Part shown: piece by piece, positions 25,340 to 58,984 of the stretch
Position numbering within the stretch: position 1 is the stretch's first letter
How the letters are laid out: each line of letters opens with the position of its first letter
Position numbers and translations under genes: made by a program
The notes under the pieces: generated by a model
The model's input: only the letters and a program-made list of their open reading frames with translations
Databases searched by the model: none
What the model was told of the DNA's origin: nothing
Virus record (IMG/VR): IMGVR_UViG_3300017788_000995
Coordinates: 1 to 60,283 of that record
From: a virus
Length of the DNA stretch: 60,283 bases
Strand: one strand, 5' to 3'

Positions 25340-26242
25340 TCAACCGCGAATGATTTTCCAGCCTGTCACATAAAGATCATATCCTTTGGGGCCTCTAGGC
25401 CCGAACCACGGATCAGGCATAGTTACAATCTTTCCTGGCGATTCGTTGAGCCATGCTCCCCACCAACTGAAACTGCTGTTCGAGATGATACAATGATCGG
25501 TTGCTCGTATAAAAGCAAGGTCTTGTGTCATTGATGTTCCTTCGGAATAGGTAAATGATCCAAACCTATTCATGGTTGGAAAGAATGATTTGCACCACGG
25601 GATATCATCGCTCACCACAATGAAATGACACTTGCCGCCCAAACTTTGAGTTATATGCTCCATTGCTCGCTCGTAGTACACAGCAGAGAACGGGAAATTT
25701 AGAGGCAGTCGCAAGTAGTCTCCACGCCGAACATGAATTGATACGACCTTTCCAGTATCCGAACTGGATCGGCTAGACTCTATGCTTTCTGTTGCACAAT
25801 CTCTGATGCATGAATCTGCAAACGAAAATGCAGCACGAACTTCTTGTTCAGCGTGCTTGAAGTACTTCTCGCTCTGAAAATATCCAAAGAAATCAATGGA
25901 ACCTTCGGCAGCAGTTAGTGCTGCAATGCGAGGAAGATACCTGATATCGTTGTGCGGTTCTCGAATCAAAATGTTTGGACGAAGTTGAGAGCAGTCAGCA
26001 ACTTGGATTCCAAACACCTCATCAATCGCCATGTTCGTCCATTGATTGCCTGGACTTTTGTTTGCATAAGGCAAACTAGGACGCAATCCTGTTTGCTTTG
26101 CGACTCCAAGCAGTAACGCATATTGGAACATTTGGTTTCCAAGTCTGCCCATTCTGCCTAAAGTTTTGCACATAACATACCCAGTAGAGGGGGGCCTCGA
26201 TTGCGCTCTACGCCCCGCGTAGGTTTCGTTCACATTCGCCAT
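25340..26242 (-). CDS. Family 11 fucosyltransferase (alpha-1,2 type)
   Basis: The protein has 300 aa. GRMGRLGNQMFQYALLLG at residues ~30-47 and VSIHVRRGDYLRLP (about 165), then HCIISNSSFSWWGAWLN (about 255), are the three GT11 signature blocks. The family moves fucose from GDP-fucose to a galactose 2-OH. The first 25 residues are extra (MANVNETYAGRRAQSR). AAGGGA precedes the ATG. It sits 13 bases after the Pro/Thr-rich virion protein, suggesting it may decorate that protein or a host glycan. Confidence 0.85.
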   Translation of the reverse strand: MANVNETYAGRRAQSRPPSTGYVMCKTLGRMGRLGNQMFQYALLLGVAKQTGLRPSLPYANKSPGNQWTNMAIDEVFGIQVADCSQLRPNILIREPHNDIRYLPRIAALTAAEGSIDFFGYFQSEKYFKHAEQEVRAAFSFADSCIRDCATESIESSRSSSDTGKVVSIHVRRGDYLRLPLNFPFSAVYYERAMEHITQSLGGKCHFIVVSDDIPWCKSFFPTMNRFGSFTYSEGTSMTQDLAFIRATDHCIISNSSFSWWGAWLNESPGKIVTMPDPWFGPRGPKGYDLYVTGWKIIRG

Positions 26243-41143: not shown

Positions 41144-42184
41144 TCAGTCCTTCGATTCTACCATTCTCTGTAGAAAATCTGCAACTCTACGCATACTCAA
41201 CTGTTCGGGAAGACGGTTATCAACAAATATAGGCTCTTCTATCATCTTACGGCGGATAGATTCATCTGTGTCTATTGATGCGATTCTACTGCGAACTGCA
41301 CCCCAATCTATTGTCATCCAGTTTCCTACTTCGGATTCGTAATCATGGAGATTGATAAACGCCTTTGGATTCCATCCAAACTCAAGTATCTTTGGATTTC
41401 CCCAAAAGATAGGAATAGTTCCAGCGCAAAATGCGTGAGCAATCTTTTCTACTATCAAATGTGGAACGCAAACAAACTGAATTGCCAAAGAAAACTTGTA
41501 ATTGGACTCGAATAGTATTTTTTGGCGTATTGATATGCCGTCTGGTCTATTTCGATAAATTTGCTTGAAAGCATCCCTATTCACTCCACTTTCACTTTCG
41601 TTGATGTTATTTGCAAATCCACCGGCTCCGTCTATTTGTTTGTACTTGCACAATTCTTCATATGCAGCAATTCTATGCGGAGGTTTAGACGCCTGAACTA
41701 CAGAACAAAATCTAACATTTCTTTTGGATATCAACTCGTAGTCTCTACTCAAAAGCCATTGCGTTGGTTCGTCCGTTATCATTGCTTCATCGTATATTGC
41801 CCAAATATCCTGAGCAACTGATGCTTGTTGTAAATAGCGAGAATGCTCAACTGGAGCATTACAAATTCCCCACATATTTGGTAGTCTTACAGATCCAATA
41901 CAATCAGCCCATTCTCCACTATAGAATAGGAACTTCTTTGATGGATGAGTCGCGGGATCATATGATATTTGTGGAGTAGGAATTCCCAGTTCCATAGTCA
42001 ACCAAGAATCTGGCTCAGATCCATGATAGAGCGAAGAATGTATCACTATATCAGGATCATACGGGTCTACAATAACATTATAATGCATCCCTAAGCATCG
42101 TTTGAAGTATGACAATACATAGTTCATACAACTTGAAGCGAACCCCTGTCTAGTGATTTTGATTGTATTGGTTATTGGTTTCAT
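41144..42184 (-). CDS. Family 10 fucosyltransferase (alpha-1,3 type)
   Basis: The protein has 346 aa. KFSLAIQFVCVPHLIVEKIA (about residue 230), then AFCAGTIPIFWGNPKILEFGWNPKAFINL, is the GT10 C-terminal donor-binding block (E-K-I, G-T-I-P-I-x-W-G, N-P-K-x-F-I). FYSGEW and the ICNAPVEHSRY segment fit the N-terminal acceptor domain. AGGAGAA precedes the ATG. It is last in a run of sugar-transfer genes and is AT-richer than the replication genes. With the GT11 gene, two fucose transferases are present. Confidence 0.85.
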   Translation of the reverse strand: MKPITNTIKITRQGFASSCMNYVLSYFKRCLGMHYNVIVDPYDPDIVIHSSLYHGSEPDSWLTMELGIPTPQISYDPATHPSKKFLFYSGEWADCIGSVRLPNMWGICNAPVEHSRYLQQASVAQDIWAIYDEAMITDEPTQWLLSRDYELISKRNVRFCSVVQASKPPHRIAAYEELCKYKQIDGAGGFANNINESESGVNRDAFKQIYRNRPDGISIRQKILFESNYKFSLAIQFVCVPHLIVEKIAHAFCAGTIPIFWGNPKILEFGWNPKAFINLHDYESEVGNWMTIDWGAVRSRIASIDTDESIRRKMIEEPIFVDNRLPEQLSMRRVADFLQRMVESKD

Positions 42185-46005: not shown

Positions 46006-47334
46006 TCAATACCCGATGCTTACTGGCTGTTCGATTCTGTTTAACCAACCCTTGCTCTTGCTGTGAGGCCATATCACAAACTTGCTTGGAGCAGAATCCA
46101 TCTTTGCAGTAAACACAACTGCAAGTCTTGAATATCCTTCTCTCAACTCGTCGTTCGGTTTGATTGATCTGTTCCACATCAGAGGTCTAGTATCTGGCTT
46201 AAAGTCTTCTCTCCACAGAGTATCATTTGCGTCATTGTGAATCGCGCATACCACAAAATCAAGATCATCTGCCTGATGGAAGTTCTTGGGTTCCCATGTC
46301 AGCAAAGTAGCAAACCTACCCTCACCGTCAGGCAGTGTTTCTGCTCTTCGCTTAAAGTCTAATTTGGAATATGCTTCGTACTCTGCCAAGGTTCTGACAG
46401 TTCCGATTCCGTACTTTCCAAACACAATGTTCGGATCTGTCTCCATCTCAAACAGCACTCGATTTCGATGGTGACAGATGTTGTTGCGCTCTACCCAGTT
46501 CATACCATCTACAAGTTTATTCTTGTTTTGATCGGTATGATCTACCCAATGCTTATGAGTTCTATACTCGCGGGTATACTCGTGCCAAACAACATTTCGG
46601 TGCGGGGAAAACAGATCATAACCGTGCGTGAAAGAACGCATTGCAAGAGAAATCTCTTCTCCGTGGAAGTAATAGTTTGGATCGTGGGGAACTTCTCGTA
46701 CCATGTCTCCGATGGTGAAGGCAAAGTGAGCAGAGAAAAATCTACACGGTACGGGAGAAGTCAACTCCGCAAAGCCTTTTCCATTTCCTGCCCAGAAGTT
46801 AGTACCGTCAATGTAGTGTGGTTTGAAGAATACGCATCCTTCGGGGGTAAAACGGTCAAACTCCAAGTACAAAGCATGATTCGTTTCTAGCAGATCGTCA
46901 TGCTGCCTACCGCGATGCTTTTCGGGATTGAATGGTGTTGCATAAGCGGTGAGAATGGGTTTCTTGTGTCCCTTGGCTTGCAAGTCTTTGATCCAACCGA
47001 TCAAAGTCTCGTCCCAATCTTGTGCAAATCTGTGGTGAGAATCCAGTTGTATAGTGTACTCTTCTCCTCCATACAACTGCTCTTGGATAGAGTTACGCGC
47101 CCAACACGCTCCTCTGCTTTGATGCCACGGCACATCAATGATCTTGAAGCGAGGATCGTTCTTGAACTCTTGCAGTTCAGCGTCCCACGGGTCATTTGGT
47201 TCATGCTGCCAGCAGATTCCAAAGCGCAACCGCTCAGGATGTTTGGCCTTGTCTAAGCAATCCTTAATGGTGGGAACCAGTTCAGGATCACGGTATGCTG
47301 CAATCTGAAGGAAAATGCGTTCATCGCTTGCCAT
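46006..47334 (-). CDS. GlcNAc-transferase family protein (Skp1-GnT-like)
   Basis: The protein has 442 aa. IFLQIAAYRDPELVPTIKDC, then LRFGICWQHE, SRGACWARNSIQEQLYGGEE and YTIQLDSHHRFAQDWD are the order of the GlcNAc-transferase family known from Dictyostelium Skp1 modification. The metal site is D-S-H. NFWAGNGKGFAEL and the middle YYFHGEEISLAMRSFTHGYD are further blocks of that family. It would add GlcNAc to an unknown hydroxyl, probably on a virion protein or DNA. The 3' end lies 15 bases before the next glycosyltransferase. Confidence 0.75.
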   Translation of the reverse strand: MASDERIFLQIAAYRDPELVPTIKDCLDKAKHPERLRFGICWQHEPNDPWDAELQEFKNDPRFKIIDVPWHQSRGACWARNSIQEQLYGGEEYTIQLDSHHRFAQDWDETLIGWIKDLQAKGHKKPILTAYATPFNPEKHRGRQHDDLLETNHALYLEFDRFTPEGCVFFKPHYIDGTNFWAGNGKGFAELTSPVPCRFFSAHFAFTIGDMVREVPHDPNYYFHGEEISLAMRSFTHGYDLFSPHRNVVWHEYTREYRTHKHWVDHTDQNKNKLVDGMNWVERNNICHHRNRVLFEMETDPNIVFGKYGIGTVRTLAEYEAYSKLDFKRRAETLPDGEGRFATLLTWEPKNFHQADDLDFVVCAIHNDANDTLWREDFKPDTRPLMWNRSIKPNDELREGYSRLAVVFTAKMDSAPSKFVIWPHSKSKGWLNRIEQPVSIGY

Positions 47335-52593: not shown

Positions 52594-53463
52594 TCAGAAC
52601 TCCGAGACAACCTCGACTAGATTTCTCATCTTATGTTCCATCAAGTACGAAAGGATATTACCTTTACGGGCCGGAGTGGAGTCTGCATACCTTTGCAGAA
52701 TGGATTGCTCCAACTCCACAGGTATATATCTGAAATCAACCATGCATCGGTTACGATCCCAGTTTCTTTTCACTTTGTCTGGCATAGTTGCTATAACATC
52801 AAACCGATTACCCACGACAAGAATCTGTTCTTGAATAGCAGCAGACTTCTTGCCAGTGAGAGGAGTCTGTCGCTTACCGTCAGTAACGAAACAATCGTCA
52901 TCGGACAGGATGTTAGGGATGCCGTCACCTGAGTCACCACTCAAGATATGATTCACCAAGAACTCGGTTGGATTCTTACATACCACAAATCCTTTCGTCA
53001 CAGGACTCCATTGCCGAACATTCGGGTAAATCTGCAACTGCTGAAAGTCTTTGTCGCTAGACACAATGATAACCTGTTCGTTAGCAGAGGTGTGCTTGGT
53101 CAGAGTGGCGATCACATCGTCTGCCTCTGCTCCCTGCACTCGCATATGACGATACGGAAACACATCACGAATCTCTTCGCGGATTCCGTCAATCATTCCA
53201 TAAATCGCCTTCCAATCGACATCAGATGACGCCTTTGCCTTGGCTCTGTTCTGCTTGTACTGCGGAAACACAGAGTTACGCCAACACCTACCACCTTCGT
53301 GGCAGAGAACAATCTCGCCAGCGTCACGAAACTTCTGTCGATATGTGCGATAAATGTTCAGTACCGTATGGCGTAACAGGTCTTCTGAAAACTGGGCAGC
53401 ATCGCCTTTGGTAAGGGCGAATAGACTTCCCAACAGTACTTGGTTGTTGTCAATCAGAATCAT
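52594..53463 (-). CDS. rnh: RNase H (5'-nuclease, FEN family)
   Basis: The protein has 289 aa. VQGAEADDVIATLTKH, VIIVSSDKDFQQLQ and GDSGDGIPNILSDDD are the acidic blocks of the T4 RNase H/flap-nuclease family. It removes RNA primers and flaps during lagging-strand work. Start overlaps the upstream stop as TAATG. In T4 rnh is elsewhere; here it is grouped with clamp genes. Confidence 0.9.
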   Translation of the reverse strand: MILIDNNQVLLGSLFALTKGDAAQFSEDLLRHTVLNIYRTYRQKFRDAGEIVLCHEGGRCWRNSVFPQYKQNRAKAKASSDVDWKAIYGMIDGIREEIRDVFPYRHMRVQGAEADDVIATLTKHTSANEQVIIVSSDKDFQQLQIYPNVRQWSPVTKGFVVCKNPTEFLVNHILSGDSGDGIPNILSDDDCFVTDGKRQTPLTGKKSAAIQEQILVVGNRFDVIATMPDKVKRNWDRNRCMVDFRYIPVELEQSILQRYADSTPARKGNILSYLMEHKMRNLVEVVSEF

Positions 53464-54569
53464 TAGTAGGCTCCAATGAGAATACAGTTCTCATTGATTC
53501 TCCCGCTTATCTTTGTGGGTTTAGTCTTGATGGAGTTCATCGTGTTCTGCACAGCACGGACACCAGTAAGTTTACTCAGCATATCTTTTGGCTTGCGGAG
53601 TTTCTTGGATACAGACTTGTTTTCATCGTAGTTAATAATGGTGGTTCCCTTTACACTTAAGCCACGAGGATCTTTTGCAAACAGTACAGTTAGTGTACGG
53701 TACTTTTCGTTAAACACAACCACCATTTCACTACCAATGATCTTTTCTGGCGAGATACTTTTAATGTTGTATTCCTTAGACTCAACCAAGTACTTTACCT
53801 TTTTGGTGATTTGATTTGGACTCTTCTGCTTCTTCTTGCGAGGCTTACGATCTGATCGCTTCTCGTCAGCAAATGTGCGGAAAGCATTAGCCGTTTCTGA
53901 AAGTATTTGTATGAGTTTTTTGAGTCGAGGCCTGGTCAAGAAAGAATATCCCTCAACCAGTTGTTCATCTTTGCCGGCATATGCTGTTGTCATCTCTTGC
54001 AGATAGGCATTTTCAATGTATGCAGCAATTTTACCGCAATGTAATGCCTTGACTCCATGACTGGTTGCCCACCCCACAGGATCAAAATTCACCTCGCTCT
54101 TGCTCGTACAAGCGTCTACAACCGAATCCACAACCATATCAATATCACCCAAGTACTCACGGTACTTGTGTTCGATGCGCTCCTGAATGGACGGCAGAGC
54201 GGTATCCTGACGCTTGGCGAGGACGACAGAACCAGTTTGCTTCAGATCATCAATCTCCCGTGCAATCTTCTGTTTAGTTTCGTCTGGCAGCGGAGCGCCA
54301 CGAGTTAGCATTCGACACAAATAACCAATGCCAGCATAACTCTTGATGCCATTTTGTGCAATGCACTTGATTGTTTCAGCATCCATCTTGGAATGCTTGC
54401 AGTAGTCTAACACCCACCGCTTTTTGTCTCGGTTGGTGCCTTTATTCCAATACCAACCAATAGCCCGTTGGAGCGCAGAGTCTTGCTCATCTTTAGTAGC
54501 AAAAGACTCTGCGCTCCAAACTGGCTCAGAACCATAGGCTCGTTCTAGTGTTTTGTTGTAGTCTTTCAT
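53463..54569 (-). CDS. Unknown basic protein, probable DNA/RNA-binding
   Basis: The protein has 368 aa. The N-terminal half is helical (TLERAYGSEPVWSAE, KKRWVLDYCKHSK). The middle has a Lys/Arg stretch (KRSDRKPRKKKQKS) and the C-terminal ~120 residues are beta-rich (EMVVVFNEKYRTLTVLF, GLSVKGTTIINYDENKS, KLRKPKDMLSKLTG). I recall this type from T4-like aquatic phages, with no function. The promoter -10 is nine bases before the ATG, so the mRNA would be nearly leaderless. It is upstream of RNase H. Confidence 0.6.
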   Translation of the reverse strand: MKDYNKTLERAYGSEPVWSAESFATKDEQDSALQRAIGWYWNKGTNRDKKRWVLDYCKHSKMDAETIKCIAQNGIKSYAGIGYLCRMLTRGAPLPDETKQKIAREIDDLKQTGSVVLAKRQDTALPSIQERIEHKYREYLGDIDMVVDSVVDACTSKSEVNFDPVGWATSHGVKALHCGKIAAYIENAYLQEMTTAYAGKDEQLVEGYSFLTRPRLKKLIQILSETANAFRTFADEKRSDRKPRKKKQKSPNQITKKVKYLVESKEYNIKSISPEKIIGSEMVVVFNEKYRTLTVLFAKDPRGLSVKGTTIINYDENKSVSKKLRKPKDMLSKLTGVRAVQNTMNSIKTKPTKISGRINENCILIGAY

Positions 54570-54607: not shown

Positions 54608-55765
54608 TCACCCTACGAGTTTAGGTTCAAATACCTCATTCTTTGTAGATGGCGCCAAGTTTATAGTCTTGACAAGGCTACGAGAAAGGGCAATAACACC
54701 CGCGTATGGGTCTACATTGGCGCCTGGACGGCGATCTTCAATATACAGCAGATGTGCCGCATCCGTGTTCAGAGGAACAGCAGGCACACACAAAGATGTA
54801 GTACGATCACCAAATCCCCAAGTGAACTTGTTGAAGTCACTGATTCCGCCTGTCTTTCCAACTAGGCGTTGCTCGTTGCCCGCACCATATGCTGCCATAT
54901 GTTCGCGGTGATCTTCTCCAATGGTTTCGCAAATTGCCTTGGCGAGGCCTGCATTTCCGCTAGACTTGGTGTAATTGTCCATATACAGGCGGACGATGCA
55001 TCCGTTACCATTCCATTCTGTGCCAGGAAAACTCTTTGGCTGATAACTGATTACACACCGAGGGTTGTCTCGGTCTTCTGCCGTATCTTCCAATAGATAC
55101 CGCGAGATAATCAGATTATCGCAAGCAGTCAGCACATCTGTTTCTTCAGTAACAAATGACCACTGTGATAGGCAGATTCCTGCATTGTATGAATGCATTG
55201 CAATTCCTCTCCATACACATCGGTCGTAGAAAGAAGAAATCAGTTCTTTGCCTCGTTGAAAGTCGCCAGAACCACCATAGTACCTGCCTTGAGGACCAGG
55301 GAATACGACTTGGGTTTCTCCCTTTTCGTTCTTTCCAGTTGGCCAGCGATACGGTTGACGAGTATCAGGATCAATCAGTAGAACATCCTGCTCGAATCCA
55401 ATCTTTACGGAGGTCAGATCGTTTGTGCTGAGAAACTTGCGAAGGTCGGCACGGGCATTAGATGCATGAGGAGTTCCATCTGCGGTTTGCACTTCGCATA
55501 GTACAACACCACTATCGCGGGTAATACCCTCAAATCCAGTTGAATCCTTAACGGTACGAACTGGAACCAAGAACAGATCAGCGTTATCAGTTGATGCCTG
55601 CTTGCAAGCAGAACCATCGAATCGCTGTGTCTTGGGGGTTTCTCCAACTGAGGTGTAGTTAGCACTACGAATAGTACCATCACCAGCCAACCAAATGTAA
55701 GTCCAATCCATTACAACTGGCTTCGTCTCATCCTTTTTCACTTTCACATACTCACTCTTTGTCAT
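54608..55765 (-). CDS. Glutamine-synthetase-like protein with altered active site
   Basis: The protein has 385 aa and follows eukaryote-type (GSII) glutamine synthetase from end to end. TYIWLAGDGTIRSAN, GFEQDVLLIDP (E125), PGPQGRYYGG, YQPKSFPGTEWNGNG and IEDRRPGANVDPY (E343) all align. However, NAG at 194-196 and QWS at 201-203 replace the metal-binding Glu of NAE and QWE. Ile257 replaces the ammonia-site His, and the flap HET is KTG. So normal glutamine synthesis is unlikely; a new ligase or a pseudoenzyme fits better. It is last in the cassette after gp46. AAAGGAG precedes the ATG. Confidence 0.85.
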   Translation of the reverse strand: MTKSEYVKVKKDETKPVVMDWTYIWLAGDGTIRSANYTSVGETPKTQRFDGSACKQASTDNADLFLVPVRTVKDSTGFEGITRDSGVVLCEVQTADGTPHASNARADLRKFLSTNDLTSVKIGFEQDVLLIDPDTRQPYRWPTGKNEKGETQVVFPGPQGRYYGGSGDFQRGKELISSFYDRCVWRGIAMHSYNAGICLSQWSFVTEETDVLTACDNLIISRYLLEDTAEDRDNPRCVISYQPKSFPGTEWNGNGCIVRLYMDNYTKSSGNAGLAKAICETIGEDHREHMAAYGAGNEQRLVGKTGGISDFNKFTWGFGDRTTSLCVPAVPLNTDAAHLLYIEDRRPGANVDPYAGVIALSRSLVKTINLAPSTKNEVFEPKLVG

Positions 55766-57399
55766 TATGATTTCTCCTTTGGTTTGTAAAACACATAAAC
55801 GGGTTCATACTTCATGTAGTCACCATCAATCTTGCAATAGTTTTTGCACATGGGCAATCCTGTTTTTTCGTCAAGACGATTCTGCCCAGGCATAGATTCC
55901 ATCGCCATCTTCACCTTGTATTTATACACGAGTCCAAACTCTTCAAGGAATCTTTGTGAATCTTTTTCAAGCGGAAGATAATCCCCACCAATCTGAATGT
56001 CTGCAATGTTCCATAGCAAGTAACGATCAGGCTTCAAGAACTCTGCACAAGTCTTCAGCGTTGGACGCAAAAATCCATCACGCCAACTCTCATATGATGA
56101 GCCGTACTTCTTATAGGATTGGTTCTCATCCTTTGAATAGGCTTCACGGTTGAAGTAAGGAGGACTTGTGAAGATCATGTCGATCTTACCTTTGTACTTC
56201 TTGAAACGAGGATCGTTGCCAATCTCTTCTGAACCTAGTCTATAAATTTCGTAGGTATTGGTTTCGCTGAAGAATGGATTGCCTCTGTATGTCTTGGTAT
56301 TGTAGAAATCTGCAACATCGGCATATCGAGAACGCTCCTCGCCCGTGTCTTCGTCAATGTAATACAGTTCGGGGTTTGGATCAGTTCCAATGTAATGAAT
56401 CTTGCGATCATCGCGCACACTCATGGCGCCAAGAATACGACCTCCCCATCCCGATGAAGGATCGTAGATCACAAGCGGAGTCTTCTGAGACTTGGCGTGT
56501 TCCGTAAACCGCTCATACAGATACTTGGCAGTCATGGGTGGGAAGTTGTGCGCCACTTGAATGTATCCGATACGGAATGCAGCAAATCCCTTCGGGAATA
56601 CGCGCTCACCTTTCTTGTAAATACGAATGGTGTACACGCGATCATCTGGCATGGCACTCACATCGAAAGTAGAGAAGTGTCGATACTGCAATACTCCCTC
56701 GTCCTTGAGTTGCTGCACCTGTTCTCGCGTGAGATTCAGAATGTCAGACTGATTCAGTTGGAAGTATCCTGTATTGTTGCCTTCACGAATCTTCACCTGT
56801 TCAAGCATGAAGTCGTAACCCTTGAAGATTTCCTTGTTGGTTTGGAATGCTTTGATCCAAGACGAGGCATCAGGCACAGACACAAGAGCAGGTTTAGGAT
56901 TGTTACGCAAGCACGACAGGGCGTGCATATACAGCGAGTCTCTGCGGAAGTGACGCATTGATCCCTTGACCATACGATCAAGAAACCGATCTTCTGCAAA
57001 CAGTTCGTAGATGGAATAGCCATCGTCCCGTTCGCTGTAGTTGATGCGAGTCTTCATCATGGTTGGAAACCATTGATCCACTTCAGAACCAAGCCTTGCC
57101 TTGTTCAGAATCACATCGTTGCCGATGTCTTCCAGTTCATCGTCAAACTCAAACGACTTCACAGGATACTCAGCCATCTTGTTCCACTCTTCAATGATGC
57201 CTTCTTCGATCTTTCCGATGCGCGGAGGACATCCCTTGTTGTCCCAAATATCGACAACTGCCTTACGCATATTGACAACCCACTCGCAGAACTTGTCTGC
57301 GTTCATCTCTAGCAATTCTTCAAAGGTGACATTTACTGGGTGAGTGAGGAGATGGGTGTTCTTCTCAAAAAAGGTTTTGTGTGCTTGTAGAGTTTCCAT
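55765..57399 (-). CDS. DNA methyltransferase-like protein (TSPPY)
   Basis: The protein has 544 aa. The N-terminal 300 residues form an all-alpha/beta domain with no recognised family (LFAEDRFLDRMVKGSMRHF region). Motif I is IYDPSSGWGGRILGAM (from 311), motif IV MIFTSPPYFNREAY (411-415) and YLLWNIADI supports a methyltransferase. N4-cytosine or N6-adenine modification is possible. It overlaps neighbours at both ends as TAATG. The large N-terminal domain may recognise DNA or a modified base. Confidence 0.75.
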   Translation of the reverse strand: METLQAHKTFFEKNTHLLTHPVNVTFEELLEMNADKFCEWVVNMRKAVVDIWDNKGCPPRIGKIEEGIIEEWNKMAEYPVKSFEFDDELEDIGNDVILNKARLGSEVDQWFPTMMKTRINYSERDDGYSIYELFAEDRFLDRMVKGSMRHFRRDSLYMHALSCLRNNPKPALVSVPDASSWIKAFQTNKEIFKGYDFMLEQVKIREGNNTGYFQLNQSDILNLTREQVQQLKDEGVLQYRHFSTFDVSAMPDDRVYTIRIYKKGERVFPKGFAAFRIGYIQVAHNFPPMTAKYLYERFTEHAKSQKTPLVIYDPSSGWGGRILGAMSVRDDRKIHYIGTDPNPELYYIDEDTGEERSRYADVADFYNTKTYRGNPFFSETNTYEIYRLGSEEIGNDPRFKKYKGKIDMIFTSPPYFNREAYSKDENQSYKKYGSSYESWRDGFLRPTLKTCAEFLKPDRYLLWNIADIQIGGDYLPLEKDSQRFLEEFGLVYKYKVKMAMESMPGQNRLDEKTGLPMCKNYCKIDGDYMKYEPVYVFYKPKEKS

Positions 57400-58322
57400 T
57401 ATGATTTCATTCTTTGCTGTACTTCAGTTTCACTAAGTCTGCGTCCAACCACCCAAAAGCAAGTACTCTTGTTTATGTCAAGGTTCTCGCGCATCCACTT
57501 GTGTGCCTTTGCTTCGTACAGATCGTCAAGGATTGTACCATCTGCTATCTTTTCCACAAGAGGTTTTCCGTACACAGTATTTAGACAATGTAGATCATAT
57601 TCTGGCAGCGGATATCCTGCCATTGGATTTACCCACTTGTTGATGTTCTCCGTTCGCTTTGGGCCAACACACAATCCGATCACTTTGCCCACGCTGATCT
57701 TATACCGATGTATACCTCGGAGAATGGCAGCAAAGTGAACTCCGCTTCCCACAGGAACAACCAATTGATCCAACTGGTTCGGTAGGTTGCCCACTTGACG
57801 CTCAATGCCATCAATGATTGCGTCTTCTCTGTTTTCAATGTTATGGGTAAAGACTGCATCGTACAGTTTTTCAGTCTTAGCGATCTCTCGCATTCTAGCA
57901 AGCACAGGACCGTGCATTCCTGTTCCACACACATTGCGAACATCTGCACCCAGCCACTTTGCGTATCGCATCATGTGGTGGTTGTCGATGGTTTCTGGCG
58001 AACTACCACCAATGCAAATCACGCAAGGAATATTCAAATCCTTACACACTCTGGCGATAATCGCTCCCGTTGTAGAATGAACCTGTGTGTGAGTCACTAC
58101 CCCATTGCTGTGTTCTTTGAGAACATTTCTTAGAGGATACAGCAAGCGAATGGCTTGTCTTACTTTGCCTCCGCTCACATCTTCAACCCCGTAGGGAGTG
58201 TACATATCATCACGCTTGTACCATATCCCCTTGATAAACTGCACGGGAGTGCGCGTCAGAACATGGGCAGGAAATGCTTTAGAAAAGTCATATTCCTGTT
58301 GCATATCAACCTGTTCTTTCAT
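57399..58322 (-). CDS. PLP-dependent enzyme, fold type II (ACC deaminase-like)
   Basis: The protein has 307 aa. YKRDDMYTPYGVEDVSGGKVRQA (written here in parts: KRDDM, then SGGKVRQA) places the PLP lysine at K53. VTHTQVHSTTGAIIARVC and the phosphate loop VPVGSGVHFAAILRG (about 201) complete the fold. Relatives include ACC deaminase and D-cysteine desulfhydrase. It lies in a coupled cassette with methyltransferases and a glutamine-synthetase-like protein, so an amino-acid or amine donor for DNA modification is the favoured inference. Confidence 0.8.
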   Translation of the reverse strand: MKEQVDMQQEYDFSKAFPAHVLTRTPVQFIKGIWYKRDDMYTPYGVEDVSGGKVRQAIRLLYPLRNVLKEHSNGVVTHTQVHSTTGAIIARVCKDLNIPCVICIGGSSPETIDNHHMMRYAKWLGADVRNVCGTGMHGPVLARMREIAKTEKLYDAVFTHNIENREDAIIDGIERQVGNLPNQLDQLVVPVGSGVHFAAILRGIHRYKISVGKVIGLCVGPKRTENINKWVNPMAGYPLPEYDLHCLNTVYGKPLVEKIADGTILDDLYEAKAHKWMRENLDINKSTCFWVVGRRLSETEVQQRMKS

Positions 58323-58984
58323 AGTGGTAGTGTAGTCTTAGAGTGATTGAATTTTGGATCATAGAACTTCTCTTCCAGTTCGCATCCCCACCATCTGCGT
58401 CCAGTAGTGTTGGCAGCAAGCAGAACTGGGGCAACTCCTGCAAACGGATCGACAACCAAATCACCTGGCTCAGTAAGATTCTCAATCACATACTTGCAGA
58501 AGTTCTGCGACCACACAGACTGATTTAGTACCTTTTCCTGCTGATCCACATAGATGTCGCGCAGCCACTCTCCCTTGCGATGGATGACACCTTGACTTGT
58601 ATACACAAGCATATGTTGGAATGTGAAGTAGTACATATCACGCTTGCCTACTTCGTTTCTTACCACAATCTTGTAGTCTTTCAGGCGCAGTCCTTCGTTC
58701 TCTAGGCATTGCGCGTACCACATATGGTTGGACAGAATGAAACCGTTCACCCTACGATCAGTCTGACACACCACAACAAAGCCAGTAGGTTTCACAATAC
58801 GAGCAAACTCTCGCATTGCCTTCTGTTGAAATTGCCGATACGAGTCAGTTTCATCTTTACCAAACGGGGTCTGAGACAGGTCTGGGCAAGAAGTGAATAC
58901 TAGGTCTACGGATTCTGATGGAATGTTAGGCATATAATCAAATGCATCTCCCAACACATACGAGTTCTCTTGAAACTTTGTCAT
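58319..58984 (-). CDS. Variant DNA methyltransferase (motif IV TSCPD)
   Basis: The protein has 221 aa. The layout is that of beta-class DNA amino-methyltransferases: VDLVFTSCPDLSQTPFG (motif IV position, residues 31-35) and a C-terminal GDLVVDPFAGVAPVLLAA with GCELEEKF (motif I). The usual SPPY/DPPY is replaced by SCPD, so both the second Pro-pair residue and the aromatic are lost, and normal amino-methylation is doubtful. RDMYYFTFQHMLVY lies between. Starts as ATGA overlap with gp46. Confidence 0.7.
   Translation of the reverse strand: MTKFQENSYVLGDAFDYMPNIPSESVDLVFTSCPDLSQTPFGKDETDSYRQFQQKAMREFARIVKPTGFVVVCQTDRRVNGFILSNHMWYAQCLENEGLRLKDYKIVVRNEVGKRDMYYFTFQHMLVYTSQGVIHRKGEWLRDIYVDQQEKVLNQSVWSQNFCKYVIENLTEPGDLVVDPFAGVAPVLLAANTTGRRWWGCELEEKFYDPKFNHSKTTLPL

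Follow-up and report, generated by a model that had tools for sequence, protein, structure and literature searches.

Phage-encoded glutamine synthetase (GS) is a known nitrogen auxiliary gene and has been counted from annotation alone (PMC9083009, PMC13037316). The active-site residues of GS have been tabulated (PMC8394153). The roles of the metal, glutamate and ATP residues are described for type I GS (GSI), in which the n2 metal-ligand His is H269 (PMC6529630), and those of R299, E305 and S66 for human GS, in which E305A by itself worsens both kcat and the ammonia Km about tenfold (PMC12236511). The intact type II GSs (GSIIs) of T4-like and huge phages (IMG/VR L014-L040; LR756501-LR756503 and LR745206) are homologous to the GS-like protein described here, and the T4-like ones lie at the same genomic place. 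Unlike the clade of this protein, they keep every catalytic residue, and many of them have an N-terminal glutaredoxin-like extension that the clade lacks. In L014, L016, L018, L030 and L040 (ORFs of 467-486 aa), this extension comprises about 110 aa with an NPxCGWCKK CxxC motif and resembles glutaredoxin/thioredoxin at 13.6-15 bits to Pfam thioredoxin, which is under the cutoff; a fusion of a redox domain with GS is possible. The huge phages L008, L009 and L010 (LR756501, LR756502 and LR745206), of 635-735 kb, also have a GSII with the catalytic residues kept.

The window, which is the whole 60,283-base virus record analysed here, carries T4-type replication genes around a GS-like gene, and its DNA polymerase shares about 48% identity with the enzymes of Synechococcus phages and of single-cell marine viruses. 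The GS-like gene occupies 54608-55765 and encodes 385 aa on the minus strand; the coordinates agree with the first-pass annotation, and the plus strand is interrupted by stops. RNase H was named by Pfam, whereas clamp, clamp loader and gp46 were named from sequence and gene order. The locus comprises the following features.

58319..58984, minus strand: N6/N4 DNA methyltransferase, 221 aa
57399..58322, minus strand: PLP-dependent fold-type II enzyme (D-cysteine desulfhydrase/ACC deaminase-related)
55765..57399, minus strand: p544, with a C-terminal N6/N4-type DNA methyltransferase domain; adjoins GS in most relatives
55774..55777, minus strand: ribosome-binding site GGAG before the GS-like ATG, conserved in relatives
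55763..55767, minus strand: TAATG, in which the p544 stop overlaps the GS-like start (translational coupling); same in L002-L005, L011 and L013
54608..55765, minus strand: GSII-fold protein, catalytically degenerate, 385 aa (phmmer, AlphaFold model, alignment)
53463..54569, minus strand: p368 (phrog_11903), function unknown, downstream neighbour
52594..53463, minus strand: T4 RNase H homologue, locus landmark (Pfam)

The fold of the protein is that of GSII over its full length. A phmmer search against the PDB matches GSII structures (best E 6.9e-47, residues 22-357), far above chance, which bears out the earlier claim of a clear GSII alignment along the chain. The AlphaFold model, a single-chain prediction (pLDDT 86.6, pTM 0.87), superimposes on maize GS with a Z of 39.5 (331 residues, 2.5 A). 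Whole fold and length are common to the protein and to type II GS from maize (2d3a), human (2qc8) and S. meliloti (GlnII), at 30-32% identity. The profile scores are 168.7 bits (E 1.8e-49) to NCBIfam GlnII, well under its 500-bit cutoff, and only 21.6 bits to Pfam Gln-synt_C, under its cutoff. No full-length match was found in BFVD, where the matches are partial or to amidoligases with TM of at most 0.33 by query length.

The clade includes 13 viral loci with the window, representing 10 distinct proteins that are 63-90% identical to the window protein (L003 equals L007; L012, L096 and L097 are identical). It is monophyletic (UFBoot 100, SH-aLRT 100) on a long stem branch, and a scan with the clade alignment found no members beyond these 13 loci. 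A scan of 84,980 species genomes found no cellular relatives of the clade, and tblastn to isolated phages gave matches limited to four uncultured huge-phage records. The lone cellular look-alike in the genome scan is a separate degenerate GSII-like protein of Marinibactrum halimedae (L099:4890-6056), in which EQE has become QQR, QWE has become EWA and the flap is missing; its losses are apparently independent of those in the clade.

Active-site residues were compared between the 13 clade loci and a set of 77 other viral GSIIs plus Sinorhizobium (S. meliloti) GlnII. Equivalences were assigned by alignment to the intact phage GSs and S. meliloti GlnII and are given in human GS numbering. The sites in the window protein, all placed by alignment, are as follows.

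55607..55609, minus strand: Ala53, replacing the ammonia-site Ser (S66 in human GS), 13/13
55385..55393, minus strand: E125-Q126-D127, replacing EQE (n2/n1 ligands)
55178..55180, minus strand: Gly196, replacing n1 ligand E196 (human)
55157..55159, minus strand: Ser203, replacing n1 ligand E203 (human)
54983..55012, minus strand: N252-G253 (glutamate contacts, kept), I257 (n2 His lost), R259 and Y261
54848..54868, minus strand: R300 (glutamate carboxylate, kept 13/13) and flap GKTGG, with G306 replacing E305 (roles from PMC12236511)
54788..54790, minus strand: Cys326, replacing the ATP-phosphate Arg (R324 human, R344 GSI; role from PMC6529630)
54731..54739, minus strand: E343-D344-R345, n2 Glu and glutamate-binding Arg, kept

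From human GS to the window protein, the metal and flap positions read E134 to E125, E136 to D127, E196 to G196, E203 to S203, H253 to I257, E305 to G306 and E338 to E343, and the further changes are S66 to A53, N255 to R259, S257 to Y261 and R324 to C326. At the n1 site, E196 is absent in all 13 clade rows (Gly, Ala or Ser), as is E203 (Ser or Thr), and the E136 equivalent is mixed, with Asp in 11 and Glu in two. At the n2 site, H253 is replaced throughout by Ile, Val, Cys, Thr or Asn, the E134 equivalent is Glu in 10 members and Asp in three, and only E338 is kept in every member. The flap residue E305 is Gly, Gln or Asn, and the ammonia-site residue S66 is Ala, in 13/13; the window flap GKTGG has a one-residue insertion relative to GKHET. 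N255 and S257, which we take to be ATP contacts in human GS, are Arg and Tyr in every row, so that R259 and Y261 are new clade invariants in the ATP strand, and R324 is Cys or Ser throughout. In contrast, the glutamate contacts N248, G249, R299 and R340 (window N252, G253, R300 and R345) are kept in 13/13, together with D76 and the equivalent of window Y163, while D63 is kept in 12/13 and the R319 equivalent is Arg in nine, Lys in three and His in one. Every residue lost clade-wide is kept without exception in the 77 viral GSs and S. meliloti GlnII. Intact GSs have 72 positions with a conservation of 95% or higher. At 46 of these, the residue is retained by at least 90% of the clade, and at 16 it is lost clade-wide; the losses are enriched at catalytic positions (8/18 versus 8/54; Fisher p 0.013). 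The residues required for the chemistry are thus lost across the whole orthologous group.

Several of these changes had been read in the first-pass annotation. The changes NAE to NAG and QWE to QWS stand, as G196 and S203. The replacement of a His by Ile257 is likewise real, but that His is an n2 metal ligand, and the ammonia site is lost through S66 to A53 and E305 to G306 instead. The loss of the HET flap holds, with GKTGG and its insertion rather than KTG as the exact form, and the retention of E125 and E343 is true of the window and, clade-wide, of E343 only. The list of losses was also incomplete, lacking the third n1 change (E136 to D127) and the ATP-contact changes at R259, Y261 and C326.

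Judging from these residues, GS chemistry by the known mechanism is not credible in the clade, because the n1 ligands, half of the n2 site and the ATP-phosphate, flap and ammonia residues are gone. A working GS in which other residues substitute for the lost ligands could draw on the remaining E125, E343, D127 and glutamate residues, and on the clade-specific acids D310 (beside the flap), D285 and E150, which could in principle do chemistry. However, no clade-specific acid lies at or adjoining positions 196 and 203, the ATP contacts are replaced by Arg, Tyr and Cys, and the human E305A change is already costly by itself (PMC12236511). Such an enzyme is highly improbable.

The first-pass annotation proposed a ligase that has a new acceptor and uses metal differently. 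In a fuller form, this would be a GS-fold enzyme for a new amine or nucleotide acceptor with a remodelled metal/ATP site, perhaps one that works on DNA bases or nucleotides jointly with the neighbouring methyltransferases and PLP enzyme. The fixed lineage-specific substitutions R259, Y261, the GKTGG flap and D310 are in line with a new activity, as are the two DNA methyltransferases and the PLP enzyme in the adjoining genes and the coupling of a PLP enzyme to an intact GS in L023. However, the known GS-like ligases (GlnA4, PuuA-like and GlnA-2) differ in the ammonia pocket but retain the complete set of six metal ligands (PMC6529630, PMC8394153). In the clade, n1 is lost, n2 is lost in part, and the residues for the beta/alpha phosphates are missing too; moreover, p544 and GS are not obligatorily linked. 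The proposal is therefore unsupported and the ligase unlikely, since metal and ATP residues retained by the known alternative-amine ligases are also lost.

The genomic place of the gene bears on its origin. The same gene order surrounds an intact GS in eighteen further viral loci; it runs gp46, usually p544, GS, sometimes p368, RNase H, clamp and clamp loader. Additional p544 loci with or without GS at this place are L111, L116-L121 and L127. A grouping of the clade with the syntenic intact GSs is not rejected by the topology test (p-AU 0.478), whereas placing it with cellular GlnII costs 25 log units and is a borderline case (p-AU 0.052). The shared locus and the first of these values therefore point to an intact GS here as the ancestor of the clade, whose chemistry would have been lost in a single lineage. 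The earlier statement that the gene is not an auxiliary nitrogen gene thus holds for the clade, but the clade is descended from or closely related to intact phage GS, which may well be such a gene. No second GS was found in the clade contigs, which are fragments, and the rest of these genomes could carry an intact one.

The PLP enzyme and the 221-aa methyltransferase are present between gp46 and p544 in this clade only. Their link to the lost catalysis is just suggestive, because there is one event per lineage. In L023:5125-5880, a fold-type II PLP enzyme, a different protein from that of the window, lies directly upstream of an intact GS. In the related 126-kb phage contig G016 (L131, L132), the intact GS follows a primase-type gene, and the window PLP enzyme has an orthologue (43%) at a separate place. 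A DNA hypermodification pathway is kept as a minor idea: methyltransferases adjoin the PLP enzyme, which weakly resembles Ackermannviridae PLP proteins (22-24%), but this likeness is only at the superfamily level. A strict dependency between p544 and GS was rejected, since L020 and L021 have GS without an adjoining p544 and L117 and L119 have p544 without an adjoining GS. The p544 model is of low confidence (pLDDT 62.8), and in L003/L124 p544 is split into two overlapping frames, perhaps by an assembly frameshift, while the near-identical L107 has it whole. The window also encodes, on its one contig, glycosyltransferases of families 11, 10 and GlcNAc type (PF11397) at 25340-26242, 41144-42184 and 46006-47334.

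The GS-like gene is under purifying selection, with pairwise dN/dS against the window copy of 0.09-0.22. These values are close to those of the adjacent p368 and PLP genes, and lower values of 0.02-0.06 are seen in clamp and clamp loader. No internal stop codons are present in the 13 loci, and the ribosome-binding site and TAATG arrangement is conserved in most clade members. Neither the window nor any of seven intact-GS loci gave an Rfam match at or above the gathering score, and no glutamine riboswitch was detected. Decay of an auxiliary gene without remaining function could account for the lost catalytic residues, the long stem branch and a dN/dS above that of the clamp genes. In contrast, the dN/dS range across divergent members, the conserved start signals and the absence of stops argue that the gene is not decaying, and many clade residues are newly fixed rather than random, which makes decay very unlikely.

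With moderate confidence, we predict that the clade is a conserved phage pseudoenzyme derived from a phage-encoded GSII and most likely working by binding. A pseudoenzyme had been among the first suggestions, and it is supported by the clade-wide loss of the metal, ATP and ammonia classes, which the same-locus intact GSs keep, and by purifying selection. One T4-like lineage would have retained a phage-encoded GSII within its replication-gene cluster, and the metal (n1 and half of n2), ATP and ammonia residues would have been replaced in one episode. The fold, the residues for the glutamate backbone and side chain, and the beta-grasp loop, which in GSII reaches the active site of the neighbouring subunit, would have been retained. 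The resulting protein, non-catalytic and probably ring-forming, would most likely bind glutamate or a similar amino acid, dock on a partner (host GS, for example, or a protein encoded in the same operon), or do both. Beta-grasp residues are largely kept in the alignment, and together with the retained glutamate contacts they suggest that an amino acid still binds in the pocket at the subunit interface and that binding is how the protein acts. The retention of four out of four glutamate residues could also be chance, because 46 of the 72 conserved positions are kept anyway, and the pocket is not perfectly fixed, with His or Lys replacing R319 in four members. What we infer for this GS-like protein is the lack of activity, the binding of a ligand, the oligomer and the partner. 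Catalytically dead GS mutants of Fusarium that keep a regulatory function provide a precedent (PMC3829961).

One specific form of this binding pseudoenzyme is a subunit that co-assembles with the GSII ring of the host or of a co-infecting phage and inactivates it or shields it from regulation. Type II GS forms a decamer made of two pentameric rings. GS active sites lie between subunits, the beta-grasp residues are largely kept, and a dead subunit would presumably damage the shared sites. However, a GSII in the host is itself hypothetical, and with cellular GSII only about 30% identical, it is uncertain that mixed rings would form; we regard this form as improbable. More speculatively, the auxiliary GS of the phage might have become a glutamate-responsive regulatory ring controlling host GS or its operon partners (the methyltransferase and the PLP enzyme). 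We give this rather little weight, and if true, the ring would be the first viral GS-derived sensor or inhibitor.

In the papers searched, degenerate GSII clades of phages are not described, and nothing on phages appears under GS pseudoenzymes. By annotation, every member of the clade would count as GS, although the clade cannot plausibly make glutamine. Here an auxiliary metabolic gene appears to have been converted to another role without leaving its locus, and its intact relatives can serve as a reference, which makes the clade a testable example of a metabolic pseudoenzyme in viruses. When compared to type II GS, the clade shares the glutamate-binding residues and, in most members, the n2 Glu pair, but the n1 ligands, n2 His, flap Glu, ATP Arg/Asn/Ser and ammonia Ser are replaced. 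The GS-like amine ligases (GlnA3/GlnA4, PuuA-type and Haloferax GlnA-2) resemble the clade in an altered ammonia pocket or flap, and differ from it in being GSI-type with all six metal ligands kept. Lengsin, reportedly described by Wyatt in 2006, is said to have arisen when a class I GS was re-engineered for use in the lens of vertebrates. Similar to the clade, it presumably reuses the GS fold without GS activity; unlike the clade, we take it to be a class I vertebrate protein whose change had a separate origin.
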